This document shows, one piece after another, positions 16,335-55,293 of a DNA stretch of 64,000 bases (its first letter is position 1; the number at the start of each line of letters is the position of its first letter). The stretch spans positions 2,666,001 through 2,730,000 of the forward strand of contig CP144143.1 in NCBI GenBank assembly GCA_028485475.2, read 5' to 3'. The stretch is from Chitinophagaceae bacterium C216 (GTDB lineage Bacteria > Bacteroidota > Bacteroidia > Chitinophagales > Chitinophagaceae). Under the pieces are notes generated by a model. It did no database searches and was not told where the DNA came from. It worked only from the letters and a program-made list of their open reading frames with translations. The position numbers were made by a program, and so were the translations under genes.

Positions 16335-16370
16335 GCGGACAAACTCTGCCACTCTTGGCAACTTTGCACA
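16335..16370 (+). promoter_or_regulatory. Element-wide 20-bp repeat, excision operon copy
   Basis: GCGGACAAACTCTGCC (16335-16350) matches the ICE-wide motif AACGCCAAACACTGCC. The following stretch, 20 bp on, is TTGGCAACTTTGCACA and includes CAACTTTG (16359-16366), a plausible -7 box. It lies 43 bp before the first HTH gene. The earlier 16170-16330 stretch also has TTGGC-type words (CAATTGGC twice). Confidence 0.5.
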
Positions 16371-16392
16371 GTGAATATTAAATACTTGTGCA

Positions 16393-16746
16393 ATGAAGAT
16401 TATAACAATTGAAGAAGAAGCGTGGCAACAACTGAATGCCCGTATTAATGCAATCAGTGACTACCTGAAAAGATTAGAGAATAACAGTTATGACGACCTG
16501 TGGCTCAATAACCATGAAGTATGCCAATACCTCCACATAAGTGAAAAAACATTGTGGCGTATGCGTACCAAAGGTGAGATATCTTATTCAAAAATATATG
16601 GTCAATACTTCTATACCATCGGTGCTATCAAGGATATGCTCAATGCCAATGCTATACAGAGCAGTGACGAATATGTACAGGAACTTATGACAAAAGGCAA
16701 GAGCTATATAGGAAAAGGCAGAAAGCTGAACACAGGCAAAAAATAG
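16393..16746 (+). CDS. Small HTH protein, Xis2c-like excision factor
   Basis: A 117-residue protein with a MerR/excisionase-type helix-turn-helix in its middle: LWLNNHEVCQYLHISEKTLWRMRTKGEI followed by the wing ISYSKIYGQYFYT. The start codon at 16393 overlaps nothing and follows the 20-bp repeat motif. By position (first gene after rteC, before a second HTH gene, a DUF3945-like gene and a topoisomerase) it corresponds to Xis2c of the CTnDOT excision operon. Such proteins bend DNA at attachment sites and also regulate the tra genes. The name is from gene order and fold, not from a sequence match I can verify. Confidence 0.75.
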   Translation: MKIITIEEEAWQQLNARINAISDYLKRLENNSYDDLWLNNHEVCQYLHISEKTLWRMRTKGEISYSKIYGQYFYTIGAIKDMLNANAIQSSDEYVQELMTKGKSYIGKGRKLNTGKK

Positions 16747-16771
16747 ATATGAACCCTCAAATGTATATCCT

Positions 16772-17053
16772 ATGAATATTGACAGAATGGATTTTTTGGC
16801 GTGGATGGAACGCATAATGATCCGCTTTGATATGCTTAGCGAACATATTGAAGAACTGAAAAAGAAACACAACAGCATTGACGGAGAGGTACTGCTCGAC
16901 AACCAGGATTTATTACAAATGCTGAAAATCAGCAACCGTTCTCTGCAACGGTATCGTTCTATCGGTAAGCTACCTTATTATACGATAAGCGGAAAATTGT
17001 ATTACAAACTATCCGATGTACACCAATTCATCAGGGAAAGTTTCAACAGATAG
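16772..17053 (+). CDS. Small HTH protein, Xis2d-like excision factor
   Basis: A 93-residue protein with the same excisionase-type HTH as its neighbour: VLLDNQDLLQMLKISNRSLQRYRSIGKL and the wing LPYYTISGKLYYKLSDV. It starts 25 bp after the first HTH gene, so the two are co-transcribed. Gene order matches Xis2d of CTnDOT, which binds DNA beside the attachment sites and activates transfer genes together with Xis2c. It lacks the longer tail of its neighbour. Confidence 0.75.
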   Translation: MNIDRMDFLAWMERIMIRFDMLSEHIEELKKKHNSIDGEVLLDNQDLLQMLKISNRSLQRYRSIGKLPYYTISGKLYYKLSDVHQFIRESFNR

Positions 17054-17063
17054 AAAGCCAATG

Positions 17064-17079
17064 AACGCCAAACGCTGCC
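17064..17079 (+). promoter_or_regulatory. Element-wide repeat motif upstream of the DUF3945/DUF4099-like gene
   Basis: AACGCCAAACGCTGCC is one base away from the consensus AACGCCAAACACTGCC. It lies 74 bp before the ATG at 17153, with TACTTTCG (17119-17126), a near TAnnTTTG box, in between. Confidence 0.5.
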
Positions 17080-17152
17080 TCTGAGTTCCACTTCAGGTTA
17101 TAAAGTGTACGCTTCCGCTACTTTCGGCGGTAAACTTTAAATTTTCAAGATT

Positions 17153-18613
17153 ATGAGCGAAGAAACAACAAACAAGCAGGAAATGCCCGAACAACTTTCG
17201 GACATATTGCTGGTGCTGGATAAAGAAAAAATGAAAATACAAGCCGTAAAGAGCATTGATGAAAACGGGAAAATGGAAACTGTTGATCCCACGAAAAAGA
17301 ATCAAAGCCAGTTCATGCGCGTGGACAAACACGGTGATTTCATTTCCAATTTTCTATCCAATTTTTGGAGACAGTTGAAAGATCCCACGCAGTTCTCATT
17401 TTTCAAGGTTCCGGCTGACGAGGCCGTAAATAAAGCAAAGGAATTTCAGACGCAGGTAGATAATCCGACTTCCGAAGGTGAAAAAGTGATGAAAGAACAC
17501 GAGGTAAAACCGGAAACCCCGCAAGAACAAAAACAAGAAAACAAAAAAGATATGGAAACAACACAGACACCGGAAACAAGCGAATACCGCTTCAAGCCGG
17601 AACAGATTGATTGGGAAACAATGAACAATATTGGATTAAGCAAGGAGTACCTGGAAAAAAGAAACCTGCTCGACCCTTTATTGAGGGGGTACAAAACCAA
17701 TGAGCTTGTGCCTATCGGTGTAAACCTTGACACTGCCATTGTCCGTACAGATGCACGATTGTCATTACAGCTTGCCGAAAACGGTAAGGTCGTGGCGGCA
17801 ATACATGGTGTACGCAGGGAACCTAACCTGAATATGGAATTTTTCGGACACAAGTTTACCGATGAGGATAAGAAAAACTTACTCCAAACAGGCAATATGG
17901 GACGCATTGTGGATTTGAAAAACACCAAAACAGGGGAAATGATGCCGTCCATTGTCAGCGTGGACAGGCTGACCAATGAGCTGATTGCATTAAAGACAGA
18001 TTTCATCAAGATTCCCAATGAGATTAAGGGTGTGAAGCTGAATGACCAGCAAAAGCAAACCTTGATGGAGGGCAAACCGCTCTATTTGGATGGGATGACT
18101 TCCACGAAAGGCAAGGAATTTTCCGCAACTGTACAGTTCAATGCGGACAAACGTTATGTAGAGTTCCTGTTTGACAGAAGCAACAATAATCGGCAGTCGC
18201 AAAGCAACCTGCAAAATAACCAACAACGCCAATCCAATGAAATTCCGAGAACTTTCAGGGGCAAGGAACTCAATGATGAACAATACGATAAGTTCAAAGC
18301 CGGGCAAACCGTCTATGTTGATGGTTTGGTAGATAAGAAAGGTCAGAAATACCAGGGCTATATCACGCTCAATAAGGATACTAATAGAACGGAATTCTCC
18401 TTTCAAAACCCGAACAAGCTCAAAGAGCAGGCGAAACCGACCGAAGCCAACAAAACGCAGACCGCCGTCAATTCTGAGGGCAAGACCAACGAAGCAACCA
18501 AGAATATCAAAGAGCCTTTGAAGACTGGTCAGCAAACCCCGAAAGACAAAAAGCAGCAGGAACAACAAGAAAAGCCAAAAGCACCTGCAAAGTCCAAAGG
18601 CAGAAAAATGTAA
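17153..18613 (+). CDS. DUF3945/DUF4099-like ICE protein (Orf3 position)
   Basis: A 486-residue soluble protein, highly charged. Residues about 140-220 (FKPEQIDWETMNNIGLSKEY followed by NLLDPLLRGYKTNELVPI) form the DUF4099-like part. A twice-repeated unit follows (IPNEIKGVKLNDQQKQTLMEG/PLYLDGM and IPRTFRGKELNDEQYDKFKA/TVYVDGL, about 280-420), which is the DUF3945 repeat. The C-terminal 60 residues are low-complexity Lys/Glu/Gln. It stands where orf3 lies in the CTnDOT excision operon, between the HTH pair and the topoisomerase; orf3 is reported as dispensable for excision. The biochemical role is unknown; a DNA or topoisomerase partner is a guess. Confidence 0.78.
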   Translation: MSEETTNKQEMPEQLSDILLVLDKEKMKIQAVKSIDENGKMETVDPTKKNQSQFMRVDKHGDFISNFLSNFWRQLKDPTQFSFFKVPADEAVNKAKEFQTQVDNPTSEGEKVMKEHEVKPETPQEQKQENKKDMETTQTPETSEYRFKPEQIDWETMNNIGLSKEYLEKRNLLDPLLRGYKTNELVPIGVNLDTAIVRTDARLSLQLAENGKVVAAIHGVRREPNLNMEFFGHKFTDEDKKNLLQTGNMGRIVDLKNTKTGEMMPSIVSVDRLTNELIALKTDFIKIPNEIKGVKLNDQQKQTLMEGKPLYLDGMTSTKGKEFSATVQFNADKRYVEFLFDRSNNNRQSQSNLQNNQQRQSNEIPRTFRGKELNDEQYDKFKAGQTVYVDGLVDKKGQKYQGYITLNKDTNRTEFSFQNPNKLKEQAKPTEANKTQTAVNSEGKTNEATKNIKEPLKTGQQTPKDKKQQEQQEKPKAPAKSKGRKM

Positions 18614-18619
18614 AATAGT

Positions 18620-20716
18620 ATGAAAACAATCATTGCAGAAAAACCAAGCGTAGCAAGAGAAATAGCCAGCCTGTTGGGAGCATCTGAAAAGAAAGATGGC
18701 TACCTGACGGGCAACGGCTATTTTGTTACCTGGGCATTCGGTCACCTTATCGGGTTGGGAATGCCCGAAGATTACGGCATATCTGGATTTGATAAATCAG
18801 CCTTGCCGATATTGCCAAACCCTTTTTTGCTGACCGTTCGGAAAGTCAAAAAAGACAAAGGCTATACAGCCGATGCAGGTGCATTAAAGCAACTGAAAGT
18901 CATCAAAGAACTATTCAATAAAAGCGATAGCATTATTGTAGCAACTGATGCAGGACGTGAGGGCGAATTGATATTTCGCTATATCTACGAACACCTGAAA
19001 TGTAACAAGCCCTTTGAACGCCTTTGGATAAGCTCGCTCACCGAAAAAGCCATCAAGCAGGGATTTGACAACCTGAAAGACGGAAAGGAATTTGACGGAT
19101 TGTACCAGGCTGCACAAGGCAGAAGCCGTGCCGATTGGCTCGTAGGCATCAATGCTACACAGGCTTTATCCATTGCCGCAGGAAACGGCGTGTATTCACT
19201 CGGCAGGGTGCAAACACCTACACTCGCTTTGATTTGCAAACGCTATCTGGAAAACAAAAACTTTTCGATAAAACAATATTGGCAGATACAGCTATTACAT
19301 AACAAAGAGTTCATTGATTTTAGAAGCCTTTCCAAAACCAAATGGGACGACCAAAGGCAGGCAGAAGATACGCTCAGGTCTATTGAAAGGAACGGGAATA
19401 CGATTACCGTTACATCGGTAGCAACCAAAGTCGTTACAGAGCAACCGCCATTATTGTTTGACCTGACAGGTCTGCAAAAAGAAGCCAACAAAAAGCTCAA
19501 CCTTTCCGCCGAAGAAACACTCAATATTGCCCAAAACTTATATGAAAAGAAATTTATTACTTATCCCCGCACCGGAAGCAAATACATACCCGAAGATATG
19601 TGGGCGGAAATCCCCAACCTTGTAAGGGCTTTGCAGGACCGGGAAACCTGCAAGCAAGCCGTAACCAAAATGAAATGGGGGCGCTTCAATAAACGTATCG
19701 TAAACGATTTACGAGTTACCGACCACCACGGTTTGTTGATTACGGATAAAATTCCGTCAGCTCTGAACGTAAAGGAAAATGCGGTTTATGATATGATTGC
19801 CTTTCGGTTGCTCGAAGCCCTTTCACAATCCTGCATCAAAGAGATTACCGATGTTGGTTTACAGGCATTGCATTACGATTTTGCGGCAAAAGGATGTAAG
19901 GTTACGGAACCGGGCTGGCGTTCTATCAAAGGCAGTTTCACGGACGATGATATCGAACCGATACAGGATTTGCCCGACCTGAAAAAGGGCGATGAACTCA
20001 AAATAAAGGAAGCTGCCGTTCTGGAAAAGAAAACCAAACCGCCTGTGCTTTATACCGAGTCCGGACTTTTGTCGGCAATGGAAACTGCCGGAAAGGATAT
20101 AGAAAACGAGGACGAGCGGAAAGCCTTGCAAAATATTGGTATCGGCACTCCGGCTACAAGGGCATCAATCATTGAAACCCTGTTTACACGAAGTTATATC
20201 AAAAGGGAAAAGAAATCCTTAATCCCTACTGAAAAAGGTTTGCAGGTATATGAACTCGTCAAAGAACGTAAGATTGCAGACGTTTCTATGACCGCCGAAT
20301 GGGAATTGGCTTTGCAAAAAATTGAAAATAACGAAGGCGATGCGAGTGCGTTCCAAAAGGAAATGGAAACTTATGCTTCATCTATTACCGATGAACTGTT
20401 GCAGACTTCCATTGCCAATACGAACCTGTCAAAACTTACCTGCCCGAAATGCAAAAGCCAACATTTGATTATCCGTGATAAGATTGTTAAATGCCCCGAT
20501 GAAGTTTGCAGTTGGGTACAGTTCCGCAATGTGTGTGGTGTACAAGTTAGAGTATCCGATATTGAAAATCTTGTGAATAAGGGTAAAACTTCACTCATCA
20601 AAGGAATGACCAGCAAATCCGGAAAGAAATTCGATGCCTACATTGTGTTGGATGCTGACTGCAAAACCTCCTTTGAGTTTGAGAAAAACAAAAGCAATAA
20701 ACGCAATGGAAAATAA
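18620..20716 (+). CDS. exc: Type IA DNA topoisomerase (Exc / TopB-like)
   Basis: A 698-residue enzyme. The Toprim domain comes first (MKTIIAEKPSVAREIA, then TDAGREGELIFRYIY with the acidic metal site), and the cleavage domain has FITYPRTGSKYIPEDM with the catalytic Tyr at about residue 315. GIGTPATRASIIETL follows, and a C-terminal zinc ribbon has CPKCKSQHLI...KCPDEVC. Exc of CTnDOT is a topoisomerase III-like protein required for excision in the cell, and this gene closes the same operon 7 bp after the DUF3945-like gene. It relaxes or decatenates negatively supercoiled DNA. Confidence 0.92.
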   Translation: MKTIIAEKPSVAREIASLLGASEKKDGYLTGNGYFVTWAFGHLIGLGMPEDYGISGFDKSALPILPNPFLLTVRKVKKDKGYTADAGALKQLKVIKELFNKSDSIIVATDAGREGELIFRYIYEHLKCNKPFERLWISSLTEKAIKQGFDNLKDGKEFDGLYQAAQGRSRADWLVGINATQALSIAAGNGVYSLGRVQTPTLALICKRYLENKNFSIKQYWQIQLLHNKEFIDFRSLSKTKWDDQRQAEDTLRSIERNGNTITVTSVATKVVTEQPPLLFDLTGLQKEANKKLNLSAEETLNIAQNLYEKKFITYPRTGSKYIPEDMWAEIPNLVRALQDRETCKQAVTKMKWGRFNKRIVNDLRVTDHHGLLITDKIPSALNVKENAVYDMIAFRLLEALSQSCIKEITDVGLQALHYDFAAKGCKVTEPGWRSIKGSFTDDDIEPIQDLPDLKKGDELKIKEAAVLEKKTKPPVLYTESGLLSAMETAGKDIENEDERKALQNIGIGTPATRASIIETLFTRSYIKREKKSLIPTEKGLQVYELVKERKIADVSMTAEWELALQKIENNEGDASAFQKEMETYASSITDELLQTSIANTNLSKLTCPKCKSQHLIIRDKIVKCPDEVCSWVQFRNVCGVQVRVSDIENLVNKGKTSLIKGMTSKSGKKFDAYIVLDADCKTSFEFEKNKSNKRNGK

Positions 20717-21587
20717 GCCGACTATTGTTCCACAAGAAATCAGAAATCTGATTTATACCATACGTGGCAGACAAGTGATGCTTGACAGCGACCTCGCTGC
20801 CTTATATCAGGTGGAAACCAAAATACTGAACAAAGCGGTAAAACGGAATATAGAGCGGTTTCCCGAAAAATTCTGTTTTCAATTGACCGATGAGGAAGCC
20901 GAATTTTTGAGGTTCCAAATTGGAACCTCAAACGTAGGGCGAGGCGGAAGACGTTACCTGCCCTACGTTTTCGGCGAACAAGGGATAGCGATGCTATCCG
21001 CAGTGCTTCGCTCCGATGTGGCTGTAAAGGTCAGCATTGAAATTATGGATGCGTTTGTAGAAATGCGGAAAATGCTTATCAGCAATGCGGCTTTGTTTCA
21101 TCGTTTGGATAAAATTGAGCTGAAACAATTGCAAGCCGACCAAAAATTTGAGGAAATTTTTAAGGCTTTGGAAAGCGACAAGCTCCAAAGTGACAAAGGC
21201 ATTTTCTATAATGGGCAGGTCTTTGATGCTTATACATTTGTATCGGATATTATCAGAAATGCCGAAAGTTCCATTATCCTGCTGGATAATTACGTGGACG
21301 ATACCGTACTGACCTTATTGGGTAAACGTAATACAAATGTAACCGCAACAATCTATACCAAAAGTATCAGCAATCAGTTACGGTTAGACCTGCAACGTTA
21401 CAACAGCCAATATTTGCATATCGAAGTAAAGATTTTCTCCGATTCACACGACCGATTTTTGATTATTGACGGTACGGAACTGTACCATATCGGAGCATCA
21501 CTCAAAGACTTGGGTAAGAAATGGTTTGCCTTTTCACGAATGGATATAGAGGTTGGTAGAATGCTTCAAATTCTGAACACTCCATAA
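20706..21587 (+). CDS. ORF6N-domain protein with a C-terminal phospholipase D-like half
   Basis: A 293-residue protein when started at the ATG at 20706 (MENKPTIVPQEIRNLIYTIR), overlapping the end of exc by 11 bp. Residues 1-100 are an ORF6N DNA-binding domain (GRQVMLDSDLAALYQVETKI, FGEQGIAMLSAVLRS). The C-terminal half (about 165-290) resembles a single PLD-type module: ESSIILLDNYVDDTVLTLL and HDRFLIIDGTELYHIGASL, where H-x-R(4)D replaces the classic HxKx4D. ORF6N proteins are common phage and ICE cargo of unknown role; the pairing suggests a DNA-acting or abortive function. It is translationally coupled to exc and ends at a terminator. Confidence 0.8.
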   Translation: MENKPTIVPQEIRNLIYTIRGRQVMLDSDLAALYQVETKILNKAVKRNIERFPEKFCFQLTDEEAEFLRFQIGTSNVGRGGRRYLPYVFGEQGIAMLSAVLRSDVAVKVSIEIMDAFVEMRKMLISNAALFHRLDKIELKQLQADQKFEEIFKALESDKLQSDKGIFYNGQVFDAYTFVSDIIRNAESSIILLDNYVDDTVLTLLGKRNTNVTATIYTKSISNQLRLDLQRYNSQYLHIEVKIFSDSHDRFLIIDGTELYHIGASLKDLGKKWFAFSRMDIEVGRMLQILNTP

Positions 21588-21589
21588 AA

Positions 21590-21622
21590 CAAAACCCTCC
21601 GAATTTCCAGAGGGTTTTGTTT
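21590..21622. terminator. Bidirectional terminator after the ORF6N gene
   Basis: AAAACCCTC (21591-21599) pairs exactly with GAGGGTTTT (21610-21618), followed by GTTTT. It separates the rightward excision operon from the convergent HEPN gene at 21639. Confidence 0.85.
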
Positions 21623-21638: not shown

Positions 21639-22397
21639 TTATATTTTCAATTGAGCAGTAATGCTTTTATAATAAACTTTTAGTGCATCACGTTCATCTT
21701 TGCCTACATAACTATTGTGAGCAACTAAACACCTAATCTTGTACAATTCATCAACCATTACATTTAACCAATGTTCATTTTGTTTAGGGAAATACTGTCC
21801 AAAAATACTCCAATTACCAACAATGATTTTTCCCAATTCTATAAAATCACAATAAAACAAATCACTATTGCCCCTTAATGGTAAATATTTGCTTTCTTGT
21901 TCACTTCTCTTTAGCTTATCTATTGTATCTTGTACTTTTTTTGGAATATTTATCGTTTGTGATTTCATAATTTCTTCGATAAATATTCTTAAAGAATTTT
22001 CGATACAATATAAATACAGATAAACCTCCGACATTTCTCGTCCTTTCTGCTGTATATCTTGGGGCAAAAGGTTTAAATGTCCAAAATTTACACTTTGCTG
22101 TATTTCTTCTATACTATCCAGCAAGGAGTTTTCATCTGAAATTAGCGGATAAAATAGCTCATTAATATATTTTCTACGTTCTGCATATCCACCTTTAGCT
22201 TGCATTTCTCTTCTAAATTCTTGAAGCGTAAGGCAAATTTTAAATTCTTTTGGCTGGTTAGTTTTGAACTTAGCAGATTGGTTGAGTTCACTTTTCAGCC
22301 TTTTATATTCTGCTTCATTCTCACTTGTGATAGTAACATCGGTGGATGCACCTGTAAGTAGTATTTTTAGACGTTCAATGTTTTCTGTATAGTTCAT
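21639..22397 (-). CDS. HEPN-domain protein, Swt1-like
   Basis: A 252-residue soluble protein. The C-terminal part (about 115-250) looks like an all-helical HEPN domain: YLYLYCIENSLRIFIEEIM is the first helix and LYKIRCLVAHNSYVG holds R221-x4-H226, the Rx4-6H ribonuclease motif with Asn following the His. The N-terminal half is helical and unrecognised. HEPN RNases serve as toxins in defence systems. It lies 18 bp downstream of the DUF262/HNH gene on the same strand and is surely co-transcribed with it. Whether the pair works as one system is inference. Confidence 0.65.
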   Translation of the reverse strand: MNYTENIERLKILLTGASTDVTITSENEAEYKRLKSELNQSAKFKTNQPKEFKICLTLQEFRREMQAKGGYAERRKYINELFYPLISDENSLLDSIEEIQQSVNFGHLNLLPQDIQQKGREMSEVYLYLYCIENSLRIFIEEIMKSQTINIPKKVQDTIDKLKRSEQESKYLPLRGNSDLFYCDFIELGKIIVGNWSIFGQYFPKQNEHWLNVMVDELYKIRCLVAHNSYVGKDERDALKVYYKSITAQLKI

Positions 22398-22415
22398 TAA
22401 AAAAGTATTTTTAAG

Positions 22416-24545: not shown

Positions 24546-24727
24546 TATTTTATAGCCACTATTTAATTGTAGGTTTTGTTAAGTTCAAAAATACAATTAA
24601 TTCCTCTTGTATTTTGATTTAATACGCCAAATCCTGCCTCTCAACGCCAAATCCTGCCACATTTTCAAATGCACTCATCTACCGCTATAATTTTAGGCTT
24701 TCAGTAAAATCTAAACAAAATTATAGT
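24546..24727. promoter_or_regulatory. Divergent promoter region between the GmrSD-like and DUF1896 genes
   Basis: 182 bp with the start of the leftward defence pair on one side. On the right side TAATTTTA (24688-24695) is a fair -7 box for the DUF1896 gene, with the tandem 20-bp repeats just upstream. Confidence 0.4.
24623..24658 (+). promoter_or_regulatory. Element-wide 20-bp tandem repeat before the DUF1896 gene
   Basis: TACGCCAAATCCTGCC (24623-24638) and AACGCCAAATCCTGCC (24643-24658) are almost identical and exactly 20 bp apart. They lie 70 and 90 bp before the ATG at 24728; with a start near 24702 they would be centred near -51 and -71. Confidence 0.6.
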
Positions 24728-43727: not shown

Positions 43728-43790
43728 TATTTTTCAGTTTTAATGTTCGGGCGTGAATTTATGGGCTGTATAGCGTGGCTATAAGAATAT

Positions 43791-43826
43791 GGCACTCAAT
43801 GGCGGTGCGTGGCGGTGTTTGGCTAA
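43791..43826 (-). promoter_or_regulatory. Element-wide 20-bp tandem repeat before mobC
   Basis: On the minus strand TTAGCCAAACACCGCC (43826-43811) and ACCGCCATTGAGTGCC (43806-43791) are 20 bp apart and lie 64-100 bp before the mobC ATG. They are read in the sense direction, as at the other sites. The distal copy overlaps the last codon of mobB (stop at 43830) only marginally or not at all. Confidence 0.5.
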
Positions 43827-45889: not shown

Positions 45890-45925
45890 CCGGACAAACA
45901 CTGCCTTTGAACGCCAAACAGTGCC
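45890..45925 (+). promoter_or_regulatory. Element-wide 20-bp tandem repeat upstream of traA
   Basis: CCGGACAAACACTGCC (45890-45905) and AACGCCAAACAGTGCC (45910-45925) are exactly 20 bp apart and in the sense direction of traA. The traA start is 366 bp further on, so a promoter here would give a long leader. Confidence 0.55.
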
Positions 45926-46291
45926 ACACTTCAATCAGCAGGTCTTTCATTCACTTTATTTGCCATATTGTTTTAGAGCAGGGAGTAAAAAATGTATTAA
46001 AACAGGGAAGAAATCAGGATTAGTGTGCAGGTAGTTTGGAATAAAAGCATAAAGTTTTAAAAACGTAAAACTATAAAAGTGTAAAAGCATAAAAGCGGTA
46101 AAGCATTTTGCCATTTGAGAAGTTTACCATTTACCAAAAAACATATCCAACAAGGCTGTAAGAAAAGCAAAAAAATATACAGGCGTATTCCTGACAAACA
46201 ATGCAGAAAATTGGGAACAATGTAATATTCAAAAGCAGGAATATTCAAACCTGCAAAGCAAGTAAAACGTGTAACAATAAATTTTTAAATA

Positions 46292-47059
46292 ATGGAAACA
46301 AAGAAAAAAACCTTAAAAATCAGCTTCTCCACGCAAAAGGGCGGTGTAGGAAAATCGACAATGACCACCTTGCTGGCAAGTGTGCTCCACTACCGGTTAG
46401 GTTTTAACGTCTTGGTATTGGATTGCGACTTTCCGCAGCATAGCCTGACCAATATGCGTGAACGGGATAAGAAGACCTTAATGCAAAATGAATATCATAA
46501 AAAGGCGGCAATGAAGCAGTTTCAAACCATTAACAAAAAGGCATATCCGATTATCAAAAGCAAAGCCGAATATGCTTTAGAAAAAGCATCGGAATATGTA
46601 AGCCAATCGGCTATTGTACCGGATGTTATTTTCTTTGATCTGCCCGGAACCGCCAATACCAAAGGGGTACTAACCACTTTGAAAATGATGGATTTTATCT
46701 TTTCGCCCATAACCGCCGACCGTTTGGTCGTGGAAAGTACATTGGGCTTTACCAAAGCCTTTCTTGAACTCCCGAAAACCATTGAGGGTAATGATGAGCA
46801 AGAGTTATGGCTGTTCTGGAACCAAGTGGACGGAAGGGAAAAAACAGGCTTGTATGAGGCTTATCAAAGTGTTATCAAACAACTCAGCCTACCCATAATG
46901 GAAACAAGAATAATGGACAGCAAGCGTTTCCGAAAAGAAACAGACGATACCGAAAACTATGTATTTAGATCCAGCTTGCTGCCCGCCGAAACACAATTGC
47001 TGAAAGCCACAAAAATGGATTTGTTTATCGAGGAATTTTTAAAAATCACGCAGCTATAA
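46292..47059 (+). CDS. traA: TraA, ParA-family ATPase
   Basis: A 255-residue ParA/MinD-type ATPase. The deviant Walker A is KGGVGKST (residues 16-23), LVLDCDFPQHS is the A' box and VIFFDLPGT the Walker B. In CTnDOT-type elements this gene opens the tra operon. Whether it partitions or positions the transfer machine is not known. traB begins 12 bp after its stop. Confidence 0.88.
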   Translation: METKKKTLKISFSTQKGGVGKSTMTTLLASVLHYRLGFNVLVLDCDFPQHSLTNMRERDKKTLMQNEYHKKAAMKQFQTINKKAYPIIKSKAEYALEKASEYVSQSAIVPDVIFFDLPGTANTKGVLTTLKMMDFIFSPITADRLVVESTLGFTKAFLELPKTIEGNDEQELWLFWNQVDGREKTGLYEAYQSVIKQLSLPIMETRIMDSKRFRKETDDTENYVFRSSLLPAETQLLKATKMDLFIEEFLKITQL

Positions 47060-47071: not shown

Positions 47072-47482
47072 ATGAGTACTGAAAATAAGAATAACGATTT
47101 TAAAAAGCCTGATGTTGATGAGGATTATTTGATGAACATCATCAGTGGCGATGAGCCAGTTGCTTTGACTAAAAACAATCAGCAACCGGAATCACCAAAG
47201 GAAACGAAGCCCAAACCTAAAGAGAAACCCCGAAGCAGTTCATCAAAAAAAGCGGACTACGAGGAAACATTTCTGGTCAATCGGTTCCCATCCGGTCGTA
47301 GTGGCAAGGTCGTTTACATTCGTCCGGAATACCACGAACGGTTGCTCCGCATTGTACAATTGACAAGGGAGGAAAAAACAACCCTCTATTCCTACATTGA
47401 CAATATCCTTGAACACCACTTCAGGGAGTTTGGCGATGATATTACAAATTATTTCAACGAACGTTTTAAACCCATTTTGTAG
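47072..47482 (+). CDS. traB: TraB, DUF3408-family protein
   Basis: A 136-residue soluble protein. A disordered, Lys/Pro-rich first half is followed by the DUF3408 core: YEETFLVNRFPSGRSGKVVY, IRPEYHERLLRIVQLTRE and EEKTTLYSYIDNILEHHFRE, a ribbon-helix-helix-like fold. It probably works with the ParA-like TraA, as ParA partners are often such small DNA-binding proteins. It lies between traA and the traD-position gene with 2-12 bp gaps. Confidence 0.8.
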   Translation: MSTENKNNDFKKPDVDEDYLMNIISGDEPVALTKNNQQPESPKETKPKPKEKPRSSSSKKADYEETFLVNRFPSGRSGKVVYIRPEYHERLLRIVQLTREEKTTLYSYIDNILEHHFREFGDDITNYFNERFKPIL

Positions 47483-47484: not shown

Positions 47485-48120
47485 ATGGAAATACTAATCG
47501 TGATATGCCTGCTGATAGTCATAGCCCTGCTTTTGCAGGACAAGATTGTAATTAAGAAACGGTCGGAGCAAAAGCCAAAACAGGAAAAAGTCAATCCGAA
47601 CCTGCCCGATATTATGGGGCAGCCCAAACCTGTAATGCGACTTTCGCAGCCAAACACTGCCAATGAACGCCAAATTCAGGAACCAGAGATAAACCCCGCT
47701 AATTTAGACATCGAATACGACGAAAATGAAGACGTAGGTATTCAGGTTCCGCAGGAAGAGCTGGACGAAGTTTTCAGTAATATGCCTGATTTTGAGGAAG
47801 AGGAAGAAGAATGGAACAGGTACGGAACATCCGGTGGCGATGACGGTTTTGCCCAAGGGGTTACCTTTGAAGAACTAAACTCCGTGGGGGTGTTGCTCCA
47901 AAAAGAAAAACTGGAAACAGACCAAAAGGAAACAACGGTAGCCATAGTTCAAAGATTACAGGGAACCGAATTATTCAGCCTGCTGGAAAATTCCATTGAG
48001 GGTGCTTCCCGAAAAATTGCCGAGCTTTTGGACAGCACACTCTCTACTGAAACAGAAGCCGGTTCTTCCAATTTGCGGAAAAATGATTTTGAAAACTTTG
48101 ACATTGGGGAGTTTGTGTGA
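47485..48120 (+). CDS. TraD-position protein with one N-terminal membrane helix
   Basis: A 211-residue protein. Residues 1-19 are a membrane helix (MEILIVICLLIVIALLLQDK), and a basic patch and a long acidic region (YDENEDVGIQ, EEEEEEWNRYGTSGGDDG) follow. The C-terminal half is helical. It begins 2 bp after traB, so it is the third gene of the tra operon; by order it corresponds to traC or traD of CTnDOT. The coding region contains two copies of the element-wide repeat (47646-47681). Cargo interrupts the operon 30 bp after its stop. Confidence 0.7.
   Translation: MEILIVICLLIVIALLLQDKIVIKKRSEQKPKQEKVNPNLPDIMGQPKPVMRLSQPNTANERQIQEPEINPANLDIEYDENEDVGIQVPQEELDEVFSNMPDFEEEEEEWNRYGTSGGDDGFAQGVTFEELNSVGVLLQKEKLETDQKETTVAIVQRLQGTELFSLLENSIEGASRKIAELLDSTLSTETEAGSSNLRKNDFENFDIGEFV
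47646..47681 (+). repeat. Element-wide 20-bp repeat pair inside the traD-position coding region
   Basis: GCAGCCAAACACTGCC (47646-47661) and AACGCCAAATTCAGGA (47666-47681) are 20 bp apart. The first keeps the GCCAAACACTGCC core exactly. The region encodes SQPNTANERQIQEPE, a linker with little constraint. Confidence 0.5.
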
Positions 48121-48150: not shown

Positions 48151-48870
48151 TTAGATATTATTCGACAATTTTTTAAGGTCAGTTTCATAGACTTTTAATA
48201 AAGTCTCATTAAGCTGTGAATATTTCTGAAGCTGAGTAATCCTCTTTTTTAACCTCTCAATATCATATTGTTTTGAATAATCATCTTTATCATAATCTTC
48301 AATATCAAAAGAAGGGTTATTATCTAATAAAACATTAATGATGCTTGTATCAGCATTATCAGATAGGTTTACAGCATTTTCAATCCACTGCTTTGTTCTC
48401 TCATTTTTTGCATTATTAGCGGCTTGGCCTAATGCATATTCTATCCAAATCCTGGCTGTCTTGTCAATTTCGTTAGCAATATCCATCCATTCTTCTACAG
48501 ATTTATGATTTAAATTGTCTGTTTCTAATTCCGCCAGGTCTTGATTGCGTAAAGCATTATAAAAATAAGGTTCCTCTTTGTCAGGATTTAGCTTAGACAA
48601 TGTATCCAGGATAGGCTCGAAACTTTGGAAAGGTCTTCTTCCAGATGGAAGAGAATGCCGGTGTTGCCATAACATTAATATTACATCAAAACACTCTTTT
48701 TCTGCTGCCTCTTTTTCATTCCCTTCTGATTGTTCAGCAACAGATATTTTTTCTGCAAGATAATGAGCCATCCAGCGTGAGAAGGTATCAACGCCTGGTT
48801 CTAATTTAAGCTCTTTCACGAAGAGTTTACCCAAGTTTATGATTTTTTCCTGTAGTTCTAAGTTCTCCAT
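48151..48870 (-). CDS. Partner protein of the Avs-like defence gene
   Basis: A 239-residue soluble, helical, acidic protein with no recognised domain. WMAHYLAEKI, LWQHRHSLPSGRRPFQSFEP and ILDTLSKLNP are its most conserved-looking parts. It overlaps the last 44 bp of the 2,091-residue STAND gene, so the two are translationally coupled. Two-gene AVAST systems (type III in current naming) have a small second gene, and this may be it, but I cannot confirm the family. The C-terminus is a coiled coil (LKKRITQLQKYSQLNETLLK). Confidence 0.6.
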   Translation of the reverse strand: MENLELQEKIINLGKLFVKELKLEPGVDTFSRWMAHYLAEKISVAEQSEGNEKEAAEKECFDVILMLWQHRHSLPSGRRPFQSFEPILDTLSKLNPDKEEPYFYNALRNQDLAELETDNLNHKSVEEWMDIANEIDKTARIWIEYALGQAANNAKNERTKQWIENAVNLSDNADTSIINVLLDNNPSFDIEDYDKDDYSKQYDIERLKKRITQLQKYSQLNETLLKVYETDLKKLSNNI

Positions 48871-51800
48871 CTGATGACAGTATAAATAGTTTATGTATAG
48901 GTTTCGAATATTCGTATTTATCTTCCCGGCTCCGGTATTTATAATTAATTTCCCTTTTTATTCCAACTTCCAATATCAGGTCACAATTAAGAGTTGAACA
49001 CATGTGTTTTAAAAATTGTAATGACGCTTTTAACCGTTTACCGGCCTGATTTGGATTTTCATCTCTGTCGTCTCTGTGACTGCTCCATATTGCGCATTTC
49101 AAGGCTGGATATGATGACTTGGGTGAATACCAAATTTTCCCGTTACCATCTACAGACAAACTTAACCTGTCCACAATATCATCTCCTATTACAAAAGGAG
49201 GATAGTCTACATTATCAGCATAGGGATCATATTCGTCTAATCTTTTGGAAACAGATTCATCCTTAATCCACCCCTTAAGCTCAAAAGAACCTGATTCTAT
49301 TTCCATATCCCCCTCTTTATAATTAGGAAGTTTGTAGTCATGAGGATCACTGCAGGTTTCCAGTGCTATCATTAGTGCGCCGGAAGTGCCTTTAGAAACC
49401 AATGCAGAGGCAATTGAAAAACTTTCGGTTCTTTCGCTATCTTTTTCTTCCCATCCTCCCCGTACATTAAGCCATTGTTCTCCGCTGTCATCGTCTGTTA
49501 GTAATGCTTCATAAAAACTCTTTTCCGGAATTTCCGATTTCCAGTTATCATCCTTACTTTTAGAAAGCCATTCTGGTCTCTTTAATGGCACTGGATCACG
49601 ATAGTCTATTAACCATTTTCCATCAGCACACGTTAATAAATGACCTGAGATCCACTCGTCCCACTCATTATCATACCAATCTCTTTTTGATACTACAGGC
49701 ATTTTTTCGAGAAACTTTGCTGCTGCTACCATCATGGAATGGTAAGACAAATAGAAGTCAAGATTATCTGTTCTTGGGTAACTTCCATGGTCATGCCAAG
49801 TTTCTCTTTCATTCGAATATCTATTCCATATCGATATTCTCGGATCATTGTTATAACCGTTTTTCTCTTTTATACCCCATTCTTCAATAATGACATTAGC
49901 AGCTATATCTTCTACTTGTTTCCCCGGTACACCAAATACATCGCCCAACGGTTCAAACCAGTACCTGTCAAAATCCCATCCGAAATGAAAATCATATTCA
50001 GTATTAACTAGTCCGTTAATGTGCCAATAACTATCTACTGTATCATTGTAATCCATTTCCACTACCGGCATATTGCTTTTACCAACAGCTTTTAGTTTAT
50101 TCAGTGTTTCGTCATCATATATATCGTCCAAAGAAGTGGAGAGATTGACCGATATTTCTGCTGAAAACTTTTGAATAAGGATGTGAGGTTCACCAAAGGC
50201 ATAATGAACGAATATGTCTTTATATTGAACCAACAACTCGGGTTTATCAAGAGAAACTCTTACTAAAGCAATTAATAAATATAATCGGGCATGAAGATTA
50301 TAAAACGGAAATTGACAGCTACCAAAGGCATCCACTTTGTCATGCTGCATCCAGTTAATCAGTTCATCAATGATACCCGTACAGTTGAATTGGGCTAATG
50401 CACTTACCGTATGTGCTGCATTCCATCGTTCTGATGAGCGAGGGGATCCAAGAGCAGACCAAATGAAACCCGCTATATTTTTGTTGACATTCTTAGATGT
50501 AAATAACCATTTATCCCATTCGCCATCACCAAAATCTTTCTCAATATGTAATTCAAATCTTGATAGTGTAGAATCAAGTAAGTCCGTTACCTTTACAGGG
50601 TCGATTATTGAAGTAGCAATACTTACAAACCCAAAAAACATTTCTGCGTCAGAAAATTCGTACCCGCTTGACAGCCCTTCAAATATTCCTTCTTTTAGTT
50701 TATCTATTTCACTTTCACTAAGATTAAAATCCTGAACAAAATATTGAAAAGAATACAGGCTTATCAGTTCTTGTGCATACTTCCTTCCTAATTGCTTTGC
50801 TAAAACAGGCCAGTTTTTCTTGAAGCTGACCTTATTTTTCCATTCTTCTGGAAGCAATTTGAAAAAAGATTTGAGTTCATAACGATTTACTCTTGATAAG
50901 AGTAATATATCAATAAATTTCCAGAGATCCTTTTCATTCAATCTTTGTATCACTTCGTTCCAAAAGCTTTCAATGTCCCTGTAGAAACGCTTATCGGATA
51001 TTGCATTAAAAGCAAGAAGGCATTTTTCAAACTGTTCATTGTTGAGAATATCCAGAGCTCCAAAGACATCTTCCCAATGTACATTATCATCAGTTCGATT
51101 TGTGTTTTGAAGAGTTTTATCTTCTTTATCCTCCGGCAATAATTTTTTATTCTTTTGATGGTAAGCTAATATTCCATCTAATGTATCATTCTGGATATTT
51201 TGCCGGGAGGCTATTTGCTGCATCTTTTCCCAGTAATCGGCGGTGGTACCTTCTATTTGGAGCAGATAGATGGCATCTGCAAATATCTTTTGCTTTATTT
51301 CTGTATTACCTTCATTTTCCAGGCAGATGGAAAGCAACTCTTCAAGTTGATGATAGGAGAAAAATCTTGACATCGTCCATCCTGTTGAAGGCGATATTTT
51401 GCCGGATTGTACCAATTCCATCAGTAATGCTTCTAACTGGTATTCAAACCTTCCTATGTCTCTATCCCGCCACCGGCTTAGTGCAGATATTCCTTCTCCG
51501 CTCGACATTCTCGCACAAACAGCAATCGCTTCGCTTCTGTTCCAATACTTTTCACGGGAGACATATTCTCCCACTACTTCGGCACAGCGTATAAAACGAT
51601 AAGCTAATTCGTCAGAGACACTATCTCCATTGCATGCTTGTTTAGCAAGTGATACAACAGCTTCCCATCTCCTGACTATTTCGTCGCCAAATTTAGACAC
51701 GATGTTTACGGCCTCTTCAAAATATACACTGGCGTCATCAGAGGCTGTATTCAATACAGCACGGGCAAGTCCGATATATCTTTCCGCCATTTCTTCAGGG

Positions 51801-54800
51801 CCATCTTCGGTGATACTTTTTATTCGCTCATAAGCACTTTGCTCAAGCTCCTGTTTTACTAAGGATAAATGCGGTAATCTGAATGCTGCTCTTACTGTAT
51901 TCAGCTCATCGGGAATCCACAAAGCTTTATTGTTCTTGATGTAGGTATTATAAAACCAGTTTACTTCTTCAGTATTTCCTTTGTCATATAATATTAGAAT
52001 AGATGACTGAAGTGCAGCAATCTCGTTAGGTAAAGTATCGTAAGAGCGATATCTATTGGTTCTTGCTTTGTGTGATTTTTCATTCGCATTTTTTACTTCA
52101 CCTTCAAAATTGAAGTCCTGCTGGCTCAATATTCTAACCCTTAGAAGATACCAGGGAAACAAGCCGTTGATTATTTCTTTGAATTCTTTAATCTCATTAT
52201 CCCGATCATAGTCACTTTTTTCCTTTTTGTCAGCTAGATTTCGAGGCAAAATAGCATCAATATCTACTTCCGATTTATCTTCCAATAAGTTTCGGATTGC
52301 GAGTGTTTTTAGGTAAAAGGTACGTTCCTGAGATTGATGTGCACTATATACCATCTGCGACGCTTGTAAAGGGATATAATGTCTCAATACCCTTCGCAGT
52401 TGTGCAGATGGTAAGTTTCTATGTAGACAAGCCTCTATAAAAGACACTATAGCTGGTGTAATATTGTCACCCTGATAGTACTGCTTTGGTTTTTTAATCC
52501 TGGATTTCGAACCTGTTAGGAGACATAAACAAGTTTCAATAAACTGTTCTTCCGGGAATCTCCCAACTTTTATGAGTTCGCTGACAATAGCTACTGTATA
52601 GTACGGTTGCCTGATACAAATTTGCAGGAAATTATTAATAGCTTCAAAATTTCCAATATCTATAAGTCGCTTTATTAGACTCTTCATTATGTCAAAAACA
52701 AATGCTTTGGACGTGAATCGATTTAGGAAATCAATACAATCTTCTACCCCGTAAATATTGAAAAATGCATATGCTAATTCTAAAACATCCCTTTCTGTAA
52801 CCTCATTTTGCGGGTGGCGTTCATCACTTTTCCGAAGATCTTCAAAGTATATTTGCAGCCAATTTACAGCAGCCCTTAAATAACCTCTGGCTTCTCCCTT
52901 ATATTCATTAATTCCTGACAATAATGAAGCAGTAAAGACATTCTCTGAACCATTCCAGGCACCACTCAGTAAGCGTTTAAATGCAATATCCTGAACCTTT
53001 TGTTGATCCTGCAAAGTAACAAGCAGGTCAATATTATTCTGAAAAAGCCCGAGCTGCCGCTGATTTCCAGCCACTTCCTCGCCAGCTCTCATAGCTATCT
53101 TAATCGCATCATTATAATGTTTGGCTCTCAGTGCTGCACGGAAAGCAAACTGTAACCTGTAAACACGTACATTTCTTGCATCGATTGGATTATCTTCCGG
53201 CAAATAACTGTCCGAAAGTGTAATTTCGATTAGTTTTTCATATTGCTCTGCCTGAAGGTACAGATGCGGCAGAACCTCGGCCACATAAGTGTACTGATTG
53301 GCTAAAGGCTCTAATATGTTTATATAGGTTTCGAAATTTTCTTTTTTTGCCAAGAAAGTTTTTCTAAACCACGTTTCCGTTGGCTCATCTCTGAATTGTA
53401 CAGATTCGTCTGACAACCACAACGAGCGACCAATATCTGCTACAAAGCTTTTAATTGTCTCGGTTGTTACTCCTGCCGCTTTTGCTAAAATTTCTATTGG
53501 AATATGAGGAGGTAAGCTTGCCAACCCTAAACATATTGCCTGTATTTGTTCCTGAAAAGAATCCGACAAGGAATCTTTTATTGTTGATATCGCTGTGTTT
53601 AATTGCAGTTCAATCTGCTCCTCAACGGTCATTCCCGCAGGACCTAATCGGCTTAATAATTCAGAAACGGTTGATGCATGAACACTTAATGCATTTGCCT
53701 GCACACGAGGATTGCCACTGGTTAACCGATGAAATTCCGTCCCGTCTTTTTCGTCAGCTTCAGGGAACCATTTCCGTAAATTTATTAATGATTCAGTTTC
53801 GGAAAATGCTTCTAATTTAAACTGAGCAATTTTAGAGTTAGGTTTTAGTAACTGAATTCGTTCTGTTCTGCATAATAAAACCAGCTTACATCCGTCCGGT
53901 ATATTTTCACGAAGCAATTCGTTGGCAAAACAGGGATGGTTGTATTCCTGAGCTGCCATTTCTGCATTATCTGCCGCATCAATCAAAATAAATAAGGTGG
54001 CAGAATCACTTGTTTGTTTTAAGGTTTTTACAGCGGCGTCAATCCGCCATAAGAACTTCTTCATAATATCATTATCCTGGGAAGTGTCCTGTACAAGCAA
54101 AGGATCGCATAGACCTTTTACGGCAAGTTCATTGACAATTTGAACCAAAGCATCCCGATGTCTATGTCGAGGTTCGCTACGATTTCTGTATCGCCCCGCT
54201 CCAAAACAATCATAGGCAATACCTATTGAATCTGAAGGTAATGAATGTATTAGCTGGCGACAGAATACAGATTTGCCAACACCGCCCGGTGCATGGACAA
54301 TGACAGGATATGAAGAATTTGAAATATTTTTGACAAGCTCATTGTGTTGTTCCCGCTCAATGATATTTTCTGCCTGTTCCCATATGGCAGGAGCCGGAAA
54401 CAGGTCTCTCTCGGCGGAAATACCGAAGCGTTTTAAAATATCTTCCCGAGAAATTATTCCGTTAGAGTCCGGTAAAACCCTTTCCTGTACAAGAGCAACA
54501 ATACTTTCAATTTGTGCATTATCAACAGTTCCGGCTATCAATTGTGCTATTTCTAATCTCAGTTCATCTTTTTGAGTATTGTAATCGCCCTCGCCATCCT
54601 GGAAGTTCAAAAGTTTACAAAACTTACTCAGTTCATCAGAAGAAAATCCCGTATATTTTTCAATGGTTTCTCTAAACCTATCATTGACCGGGTCATCATT
54701 TGCTAACAAATTTATATTCCGTTTGAAAGAATCTTCTAGCGGTCTGTTGGTAACGATGGTAAATGAAAAAACAGGAGCATTTGTCTCTGTTAAATGTTGG

Positions 54801-55102
54801 GAAAATCTTTTTGAAAAGCCCTCAATGGTATCTTTCAAATCACTTAAAACAAAAGGAGTATCTTTCTGAACCGTTGTGTGCTTTAATTGGTAATACTTAA
54901 TCTGCTTTCTGTCATTTAACTCATCGTAATATTCAGTGACGTCTATAACATACTCGCCTTCTTTCTCGTTTTCTTTTGAACCTTCGATCACAATAGTCCG
55001 TAGAGAAGCGTTAGAATAAACTAATCCTAAGCAGCGTCTGGCTGCCCACCTGTAATGAAATACATCACCTGCTCTTGAATATGCTACTAAGTCGTTCGGC
55101 AT
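48827..55102 (-). CDS. Avs-like STAND NTPase with N-terminal Cap4-like nuclease
   Basis: 2,091 residues. Residues about 1-200 look like a Cap4/DUF4297 nuclease: RAGDVFHYRWAARRCLGLVY, an acidic TIVIEGSKEN and the QxK strand YYQLKHTT (about 72-79). The STAND NTPase core has Walker A VHAPGGVGKSVFC (about 268-280), DCFGAGRYRNRSEPRHRHRD, which I recall from AVAST proteins, and Walker B LFILIDAADNA (about 367-377). The rest, about 600-2,091, is a helical repeat sensor. Avs proteins bind conserved phage proteins (terminase or portal) and then cut DNA. The gene is A+T-richer than the tra genes on both sides and antisense to them, with its partner gene overlapping its end. Confidence 0.82.
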   Translation of the reverse strand: MPNDLVAYSRAGDVFHYRWAARRCLGLVYSNASLRTIVIEGSKENEKEGEYVIDVTEYYDELNDRKQIKYYQLKHTTVQKDTPFVLSDLKDTIEGFSKRFSQHLTETNAPVFSFTIVTNRPLEDSFKRNINLLANDDPVNDRFRETIEKYTGFSSDELSKFCKLLNFQDGEGDYNTQKDELRLEIAQLIAGTVDNAQIESIVALVQERVLPDSNGIISREDILKRFGISAERDLFPAPAIWEQAENIIEREQHNELVKNISNSSYPVIVHAPGGVGKSVFCRQLIHSLPSDSIGIAYDCFGAGRYRNRSEPRHRHRDALVQIVNELAVKGLCDPLLVQDTSQDNDIMKKFLWRIDAAVKTLKQTSDSATLFILIDAADNAEMAAQEYNHPCFANELLRENIPDGCKLVLLCRTERIQLLKPNSKIAQFKLEAFSETESLINLRKWFPEADEKDGTEFHRLTSGNPRVQANALSVHASTVSELLSRLGPAGMTVEEQIELQLNTAISTIKDSLSDSFQEQIQAICLGLASLPPHIPIEILAKAAGVTTETIKSFVADIGRSLWLSDESVQFRDEPTETWFRKTFLAKKENFETYINILEPLANQYTYVAEVLPHLYLQAEQYEKLIEITLSDSYLPEDNPIDARNVRVYRLQFAFRAALRAKHYNDAIKIAMRAGEEVAGNQRQLGLFQNNIDLLVTLQDQQKVQDIAFKRLLSGAWNGSENVFTASLLSGINEYKGEARGYLRAAVNWLQIYFEDLRKSDERHPQNEVTERDVLELAYAFFNIYGVEDCIDFLNRFTSKAFVFDIMKSLIKRLIDIGNFEAINNFLQICIRQPYYTVAIVSELIKVGRFPEEQFIETCLCLLTGSKSRIKKPKQYYQGDNITPAIVSFIEACLHRNLPSAQLRRVLRHYIPLQASQMVYSAHQSQERTFYLKTLAIRNLLEDKSEVDIDAILPRNLADKKEKSDYDRDNEIKEFKEIINGLFPWYLLRVRILSQQDFNFEGEVKNANEKSHKARTNRYRSYDTLPNEIAALQSSILILYDKGNTEEVNWFYNTYIKNNKALWIPDELNTVRAAFRLPHLSLVKQELEQSAYERIKSITEDGPEEMAERYIGLARAVLNTASDDASVYFEEAVNIVSKFGDEIVRRWEAVVSLAKQACNGDSVSDELAYRFIRCAEVVGEYVSREKYWNRSEAIAVCARMSSGEGISALSRWRDRDIGRFEYQLEALLMELVQSGKISPSTGWTMSRFFSYHQLEELLSICLENEGNTEIKQKIFADAIYLLQIEGTTADYWEKMQQIASRQNIQNDTLDGILAYHQKNKKLLPEDKEDKTLQNTNRTDDNVHWEDVFGALDILNNEQFEKCLLAFNAISDKRFYRDIESFWNEVIQRLNEKDLWKFIDILLLSRVNRYELKSFFKLLPEEWKNKVSFKKNWPVLAKQLGRKYAQELISLYSFQYFVQDFNLSESEIDKLKEGIFEGLSSGYEFSDAEMFFGFVSIATSIIDPVKVTDLLDSTLSRFELHIEKDFGDGEWDKWLFTSKNVNKNIAGFIWSALGSPRSSERWNAAHTVSALAQFNCTGIIDELINWMQHDKVDAFGSCQFPFYNLHARLYLLIALVRVSLDKPELLVQYKDIFVHYAFGEPHILIQKFSAEISVNLSTSLDDIYDDETLNKLKAVGKSNMPVVEMDYNDTVDSYWHINGLVNTEYDFHFGWDFDRYWFEPLGDVFGVPGKQVEDIAANVIIEEWGIKEKNGYNNDPRISIWNRYSNERETWHDHGSYPRTDNLDFYLSYHSMMVAAAKFLEKMPVVSKRDWYDNEWDEWISGHLLTCADGKWLIDYRDPVPLKRPEWLSKSKDDNWKSEIPEKSFYEALLTDDDSGEQWLNVRGGWEEKDSERTESFSIASALVSKGTSGALMIALETCSDPHDYKLPNYKEGDMEIESGSFELKGWIKDESVSKRLDEYDPYADNVDYPPFVIGDDIVDRLSLSVDGNGKIWYSPKSSYPALKCAIWSSHRDDRDENPNQAGKRLKASLQFLKHMCSTLNCDLILEVGIKREINYKYRSREDKYEYSKPIHKLFILSSDGELRTTGKNHKLG

Positions 55103-55293
55103 TATCTGTAGTTCCTCAGCTAAAAGTTTTAAATACAGCTAATATACTGCTTTTTTCACTTCAATAACAGCCATTCACAGCCAAACACTTCCTTTGACTG
55201 CCACTTTGTAAGACCGCCTCCATTTCTGAAACACCTTTGTTCCGATAAGCCCGCAAGGTGTGGGCTGAGTTAACAAATTAATGTGTTTCAATT
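55103..55293 (+). promoter_or_regulatory. Promoter region of the traE operon
   Basis: 191 bp between the Avs-like start and traE. It includes the 20-bp repeats (55157-55212) and CACCTTTG (55232-55239), a weak -7 candidate. A short GC-rich dyad, AAGCCCGCAAGGTGTGGGCT (55247-55266), lies in the presumed leader of traE. Confidence 0.45.
55177..55212 (+). promoter_or_regulatory. Element-wide 20-bp repeats upstream of traE
   Basis: ACAGCCAAACACTTCC (55177-55192) is 82-117 bp before the traE ATG. A weaker copy, ACTGCCACTTTGTAAG, follows exactly 20 bp later, and a third diverged one may lie at 55157-55172. Confidence 0.5.

Follow-up and report, generated by a model that had tools for sequence, protein, structure and literature searches.

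Ten-base-phased direct repeats at a fixed distance from promoter-like elements in a Bacteroidota integrative and conjugative element

We found that an integrative and conjugative element (ICE) of Chitinophagaceae bacterium C216 carries one site at seven places: an array of GCCA words repeated every ten base pairs (bp), which is followed at a fixed distance by a sequence resembling the -7 promoter element of Bacteroidota. The window analysed here comprises 64,000 nucleotides (positions 2,666,001 to 2,730,000 of contig CP144143.1, GenBank assembly GCA_028485475.2), and positions are counted from its first letter. The arrays form an ICE-wide, ordered and promoter-linked code. They are most likely bound by a helix-turn-helix (HTH) protein of the HTH_17 family and the Xis/BldC/RdfS fold that the excision operon of the element encodes, and the best candidate is HTH2 (16772-17053).

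Results

The repeat unit has ten base pairs

The original prediction, made from the letters of the window alone, had described an operator-like 16-mer ahead of six gene units, often repeated at exactly 20 bp. Such a motif exists, and far above chance: with up to three mismatches, the 16-mer matches at six positions (17064, 24623, 24643, 45910, 47646 and 55177) where 0.42 matches are expected, and none of 100 shuffles reached six. Other sites named in the prediction (16335, 43826 and 43806 on the minus strand, and 45890) lie beyond three mismatches of the 16-mer; the core GCCAAACNCTGCC with one mismatch recovers 16338, 43811-43823 on the minus strand and 45893. The 3.34-Mb genome holds 14 such core matches, ten of them within the element, and phased flanks are absent at all four host matches.

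The description of the motif needs correcting, as its unit is 10 bp and not 20. Aligned by eye, the sites prove to be arrays of some four GCCA-N6 decamers each, on one face of the DNA; the 20-bp step corresponds to skipping alternate decamers, and we replace it by 10 bp per presumed subunit. At step 10, the exact pattern GCC-N7-GCC-N7-GCC has seven occurrences in the window, compared with zero or one at steps 6-9 and 11-15 and none in 16 host stretches totalling 310 kb; Markov resamples of the window (n=200) contained 0.14 on average and two at most. With one mismatch allowed, 12 triples at step 10, all within arrays, stand against 3-9 at other steps, and 17 were found in the 310 kb of host DNA, a smaller contrast than in the exact search. 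Only two exact fourfold GCC matches exist in the entire genome, and the window holds both of them. A fourfold GCC scan of 395 genomes of the class gave matches in 93, which are mostly due to chance because a reversed-pattern control also matches GC-rich genomes; among the matches listed, only those in one other genome (G532) and in the window's own genome were array-like by eye. The motif is not equally frequent in the host or in coding DNA, and the sole coding site is itself conserved. The predicted list of sites lacked the array inside traC and another immediately beyond the right end of the window, and its first entry, 16335, turned out to be another type of site. The arrays, their -7-like elements and this variant are as follows.

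17057..17096, plus strand: array of four decamers, 14/16 letters of GCCA x4, before the DUF3945-topoisomerase genes
17119..17126, plus strand: -7-like element TACTTTCG, 22 bp past the array end
24626..24665, plus strand: array, 15/16, before the DUF1896 and N6-methylase-helicase genes
24688..24695, plus strand: -7-like element TAATTTTA, 22 bp past the array end
43784..43823, minus strand: array, 16/16, before the mobC/TraG-type coupling protein gene
43754..43761, minus strand: -7-like element TAAATTCA, 22 bp past the array end
45893..45932, plus strand: array, 14/16, before traA
45955..45962, plus strand: -7-like element TTTATTTG, 22 bp past the array end
47639..47678, plus strand: array, 14/16, within the traC coding sequence
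47700..47707, plus strand: -7-like element TAATTTAG inside traC, 21 bp past the array end
55170..55209, plus strand: array, 14/16, before traE
55232..55239, plus strand: -7-like element CACCTTTG, 22 bp past the array end
65264 (L011:1264, just right of the window): seventh array, before a second pair of HTH_17 genes
22 bp past the end of the 65264 array (L011): -7-like element TAAATTCG
16318..16357, both strands: xis-operon operator variant, with minus-strand decamers TTGGC at 16322 and 16332 and plus-strand decamers GACA at 16338 and GCCA at 16348

The variant operator of the xis operon, with its two decamers per strand, is kept in the majority of the 18 promoters that we aligned, that of the window among them.

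A promoter-like element at a fixed distance

The -7/-33 promoter consensus reported for Bacteroidota is TAnnTTTG/TTTG (PMC2483708). A match to TAnnTTTG starts 22 bp after the fourth decamer in all seven arrays (21 bp in traC), agreeing in four of six letters for TAAATTCA and in five for the other six elements. We extended the comparison to 46 non-redundant arrays from the window and its relatives, which share less than 70% identity. At offsets 31, 32, 41 and 42, counted from the last GCC (41 and 42 allow for one degenerate last decamer), 34/46 carry a -7 with at least 5/6 letters, while 69 shifted offset sets gave a mean of 2.1% and a maximum of 8.7%. This offset set was fixed after the offset profile had been seen, and the spacing was first noticed in the window's own arrays; with the arrays of the window and L011 excluded, the -7 fits in 29/40 arrays, and in 18/40 at offsets 31 and 32 alone. 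The -33 box TTTG is not enriched among the 46 arrays, reaching at most 4% at any offset where it could lie. The resulting architecture resembles that of class II promoters, with an activator-type site at a fixed distance from the -7 and a lacking -33/-35 box. A joint scan of the window and L011 (12/16 letters and a -7 of at least 4/6) returned only the seven array sites, and none were found in stretches L009, L010 and L012 or in the 310 kb of host DNA.

The arrays are conserved in related elements

A scan with TraA yielded 249 confirmed relatives, of which we used the best 80, so that the sample leans to close kin; these 80 loci come from Flavobacterium, Chryseobacterium, Sphingobacterium, Bacteroides and others. 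Exact GCC triples at step 10 number 180 in these loci and come from 50 of the 80; no other step between 5 and 25 yields more than 19. We also counted, without supervision, tetramers that recur three times with a constant lag. At lag 10 this singled out GCCA in a strong group of 15 loci and GGAC/GACA in four loci of gut Bacteroidales, and seven loci selected for their lack of arrays showed no similar signal. When we demanded G[CA]CA x4 together with a -7 of 5/6 at +21/22, the traA array was found in 50 loci, the traC array in 59 and at least one of them in 68, compared with no traA or traC array in any of the 80 loci at the wrong steps 8, 9, 11, 12 and 13. With a -7 of 4/6, the joint rule also holds at 39/59 traE, 47/73 TraG and 28/42 DUF3945 promoters; a recount that takes any match gives 48 for TraG and 29 for DUF3945, with none at wrong steps except 1/73 for TraG at step 13. 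The traE arrays lie mostly about 130 bp ahead of the start, and in many loci their third decamer (e.g. 55190) has TTCC in place of TGCC or GCC. Only 1/9 testable DUF1896 homologues satisfies the rule at this -7 threshold; DUF1896-type sequence with fourfold GCC arrays is present in three genomes (G202, G206 and G234).

ICEs of gut Bacteroidales use the word GGACA with the same geometry. The letters switch together at traA and inside traC, and the spacing is unchanged. Two annotated records hold five such arrays in all: Bacteroides ovatus and Parabacteroides distasonis each have one ahead of the traA region and one within the gene following DUF3408, and the latter has a further one before DUF4099-topB. 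A -7 of 5-6 letters stands at +22 in four of the five, the DUF4099 array being without it, and in a separate set of nine GGACA arrays, near-copies included, the -7 peaks at offset 32 (78%). In the CTnDOT-like record NZ_OR675140.1 an exact triple at lag 10 was not found; a wider scan of 50 kb gave a single array upstream of traA (15/16), whose -7-like element TTTATTTG is displaced downstream by one decamer.

A motif search in other ICEs had been proposed with a 20-bp spacing; the arrays are indeed widespread in the relatives, with a period of 10 only. The predicted multimer operator on one DNA face is supported by this phasing, by the fixed distance to the -7-like element, by conservation in related ICEs and by absence from the sampled host.

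An array inside traC

The array in traC lies within an open reading frame (ORF), and its words fall in all three reading frames because the step is 10 bp. Of 74 TraC ORFs, 36 contain an exact GCC triple, which in 31 of them sits at nucleotide 154/164 of the ORF, and four others contain a GGACA triple. Synonymous-codon shuffling led us to expect 1.35 genes with a GCC triple instead of the 36 seen, with the qualification that the genes are related and not independent. A cruder test, synonymous-site identity inside traC, was not significant (rank 66 of 201 windows). The element TAATTTAG is well conserved, which in coding DNA may have other causes. An internal promoter in traC that serves the downstream tra genes is likely.

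HTH2 is the best candidate for the binder

The genes of the window that bear on the identity of the binder and on the arrays are listed here.

15275..16120, plus strand: RteC homologue, disfavoured as binder
16393..16746, plus strand: HTH1, HTH_17 protein in the Xis2c position by gene order
16772..17053, plus strand: HTH2, HTH_17 protein in the Xis2d position by gene order
46292..47059, plus strand: TraA, ParA-type ATPase
47072..47482, plus strand: DUF3408 protein, ribbon-helix-helix-like, disfavoured as binder
47485..48120, plus strand: TraC, named by operon position, with no Pfam family found
55294..55599, plus strand: TraE, DUF4134 family

The original prediction had named the two Xis-like HTH proteins or RteC as binders. 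For the HTH proteins this is supported indirectly, through the occurrence of HTH2, the agreement between its recognition helix and the array word, and its predicted fold. HTH1 and HTH2 both match Pfam HTH_17. Linkage was asked for 50 of the 80 loci by searching 49 genomes: HTH2 is present in all 49 TraA-bearing genomes, HTH1 in 25/49 at 1e-12. The recognition helix of HTH2 reads SxRSLQRYRS in most linked loci with GCC arrays, TYRCLQRYRT in four linked loci without arrays and PRTLTRYRKKG in L103 and L254, two linked loci with GGACA; the HTH2 of L104 is unlinked to its TraA and was excluded as evidence. This agreement of helix and word is suggestive and not proof, because the remaining backbone varies between the locus groups too, and identity of the relaxase, TraG or TraC predicts array identity just as well as HTH2 does.

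The structural model of HTH2 (pLDDT 89.6) consists of a long N-terminal helix and a winged HTH (wHTH), and both the Pfam match and Foldseek assign it the BldC/Xis-type wHTH fold. Its best Foldseek matches are the BldC-DNA complexes 6ama/6amk (probability 0.98-1.0, best E 0.025). Ranked by match, a BldC-DNA complex is followed by TubR, BldC again and the GIsul2 excisionase, with RdfS and Pukovnik Xis lower; the GIsul2 excisionase, RdfS and Pukovnik Xis reach a probability of 0.97-1.0. None of the structure matches lies below E 0.02, hence none at E 0.001.

Small elements share the arrays

We searched 23 of the 49 genomes, most of them selected because they have arrays, for four decamers and obtained 93 places, compared with five for the reversed pattern. 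Eight regions away from TraA sites were examined because of their array-like words, and some others (e.g. G221, G235 C32 and G215 C9) were set aside as chance-like. Six of the regions are small mobilizable elements (L205 and L207-L211) with arrays beside an HTH3/HTH4-like gene pair, DUF3408, MobC and a relaxase, and five of the six have an integrase within the stretch; TraA, TraC and RteC were not detected in these six stretches. Pfam confirms HTH_17 and DUF3408 in L208. Most small-element arrays of the non-redundant list keep the -7 spacing. Of the two other regions, L206 holds MobC/relaxase pieces and distant tra genes, and L212 is an ICE fragment.

Neighbouring genes

Between traC and traE, Avs3a/Avs3b-like defence genes identified by PADLOC are inserted (48151-55102); traE, downstream of them, retains an array (55170), as it does in most of the other loci that could be tested. 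The DUF1896 operon adjoins a region (21639-24545) with an HEPN/Swt1-like gene (PADLOC PDC-M34B) and a GmrSD-type restriction gene. At 36717-41036, a single ORF combines an ACR-type efflux pump with an outer-membrane factor domain; a relative with 49% identity stands beside the relaxase of a small element (L205:12374-16774). At 13592-14721, a truncated RteC-like gene and an integrase fragment, which matches an intact integrase region at L011:11535-11959, may have been left behind at the left end by another element. A search for att sites returned only integrase-fragment repeats, and a tRNA scan gave no tRNA.

Variation was also seen around TraA. TraA is only 55-58% identical in L076, L078, L080, L082, L087 and L090, the backbone being otherwise close, and flank identities suggest an exchange point just past the traA array. 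Several ICEs have two or three tandem DUF3408 genes.

Discussion

We consider the arrays to be probably activator sites for an HTH_17 protein encoded by the excision operon, with HTH2 as the likeliest one. The excision operon would produce this wHTH protein of the excisionase/BldC/RdfS type, which would bind head-to-tail with one subunit per 10-bp turn and about four subunits per array. The bound oligomer would end beside the would-be -33 box and could recruit RNA polymerase to the -7 element, which lies 21-22 bp further along. Once the excision operon is expressed, a single regulator could thus turn on the promoters of mob, traA, traE, the DUF3945-topoisomerase genes, the DUF1896-helicase genes and the second HTH pair, as well as the one inside traC.

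Proteins outside the HTH_17 group could read the arrays instead. The DUF3408 protein adjoins the ParA-like TraA, is present in 76/80 loci as well as in small elements, and has a strand-helix-helix order that looks like a ribbon-helix-helix (RHH) protein; its sole PDB profile match is ORF56 (2k9i/3ft7, E 0.34). RHH proteins are able to bind direct repeats of about 10 bp, so that the arrays could be centromere-like or operator sites of an RHH partner of TraA, as in ParR/parC or omega. However, the model of DUF3408 is weak (pLDDT 64) with no Foldseek match, and array and protein dissociate both ways. Where the TraA-DUF3408 module has been swapped (L080, L082, L087 and L090; TraA 55-56%, DUF3408 38-39% identical), the traA arrays are still 78-88% identical, and the 3' flank of the array tracks TraA while the array does not. 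Conversely, the DUF3408 of L047, L049, L052 and L053 is 64-68% identical and shares the KVVYIR strand, yet arrays were not found there. The swap half of this dissociation is weakened by the swapped versions seen (L079 and L080), whose strand K[ST][VI]YIR differs by one or two changes and is thus mostly kept. We disfavour a ParA/RHH partition system with centromere arrays, as the arrays do not go with the RHH partner, and regard DUF3408 as a quite unlikely binder. RteC or another regulator outside the HTH_17 group is very unlikely in our judgement. RteC homologues do occur in 49/49 genomes, and the RteC of CTnDOT activates excision-operon genes (PMC10865816), but the 18-20-kb stretches around the arrays of the six small elements gave no RteC match at 1e-5. 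In L098 and L056, two loci with GCC arrays, the linked RteC is, among the matches listed, only 27% and 29% identical, respectively; weak homologues may be missed in these searches.

The arrays might also act differently. Head-to-tail wHTH filaments can compact DNA (PMC11963761), and the arrays adjoin likely promoters, so that a silencing filament is conceivable; we think repression unlikely, since CTnDOT excisionases act as transcription factors that activate transfer genes (PMC9956884). The position of the arrays just upstream of the -33 region and the missing enrichment of the TTTG box likewise favour activation. A role in the transcript, as leader RNA or small-RNA target, would fit the sense orientation ahead of most genes, and the small RNA RteR regulates tra of CTnDOT. 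Such a role seems extremely improbable given the strict 10-bp phasing and the position of the arrays upstream of the -7-like element, which probably places them outside the transcript; as a possible antisense partner, a minus-strand match to the 16-mer within three mismatches was not found in the window.

Several observations weigh against an HTH2-read array code. The joint rule is satisfied neither at traA nor in traC in 12/80 loci. The Spearman correlation of protein identity with the traA array is 0.80 for HTH2, compared with 0.85 for the relaxase, 0.84 for TraG and 0.87 for TraC; 12/49 genomes, whose HTH2 is on a different contig, on the opposite strand or far away and could not be linked with TraA, were excluded here, L073 was retained at 64 kb, absent HTH1 was coded as 0 and unlisted RteC as 20. 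Identity correlation alone does not single out HTH2, because backbone genes correlate as well or better. TubR, a wHTH protein of plasmid segregation, ranks second among the structure matches of HTH2, and RdfS is described without a sequence consensus, unlike the GCCA arrays (PMC11963761). In L105, HTH1 and HTH2 are close (81/79%), yet the traA array is weak (65%). The GGACA element L255 has an HTH1 homologue and no separate HTH2 homologue in the 40.7 kb examined, and the small elements carry HTH3/HTH4-type proteins in place of HTH2, which is why different HTH_17 members may act in different elements.

The proposed binding mode has parallels in known proteins. BldC of Streptomyces, which shares the wHTH fold, binds direct repeats asymmetrically and head-to-tail at many promoters, with about one subunit per turn; its repeats are of 9 bp, AT-rich and loosely conserved (PMC5859096), in contrast to the 10-bp GCCA/GGACA words on the ICE, which show step 10 only and would be bound by HTH2. 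RdfS of ICEMlSymR7A, an ICE excisionase of the same HTH_17 group, occupies 40 bp as a tetramer, 10 bp per molecule, and also controls transcription; its lack of an apparent consensus differs from the explicit word repeated at seven places here (PMC11963761). Element-wide class II activation from a site over the missing -35 box is described for SetCD/AcaCD, also in mobilizable islands such as SGI1, although these activators are FlhCD-related and not HTH_17 proteins, and the available part of the source mentions no phased decamers (PMC4542580). Shared motifs ahead of five operons are reported for the Bacteroidota conjugative transposon PvCTn; they are imperfect dyads tied to a repressor candidate, and 10-bp phased direct repeats are not mentioned in the accessible text (PMC11005914).

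With CTnDOT-type elements, the window (16393-20716) shares the gene order HTH-HTH-DUF3945-type IA topoisomerase, as in NZ_OR675140.1 (2785-7229), whose second HTH protein (3145-3495) is 43% identical to HTH2; that record has only one clear array in the 50 kb scanned. The excision operon of CTnDOT consists of Xis2c-Xis2d-orf3-Exc. Work by Hopp in 2015 is said to have found Xis2d bound to the mob-tra intergenic region and reportedly described the CTnDOT site as dyad-symmetric. We know of no ICE-wide array code for CTnDOT, and a description of phased arrays in these ICEs was not found in the full-text literature searched, which covers few specialist CTnDOT papers.

It is possible, although on balance we rather doubt it, that a master-activation code of Bacteroidota ICEs extends beyond the elements themselves: one word (GCCA or GGACA) per turn would be read by head-to-tail tetramers of excisionase fold, even inside traC, and the excision and mobilization genes of the small elements would be switched on by the regulator of a helper ICE.

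To our knowledge, the coordinated turn-on of the scattered operons of Bacteroidota conjugative transposons has so far been studied promoter by promoter. The same four-part, ten-base-phased site at a fixed distance from the likely start signals of many transfer genes looks like one master switch. With the rule of four phased words and a -7 at +22, much of the regulon can be predicted from its sequence; the rule also suggests a promoter inside traC and finds small elements that share the switch. The natural series of word changes may furthermore be useful for understanding how excisionase-fold proteins read DNA.

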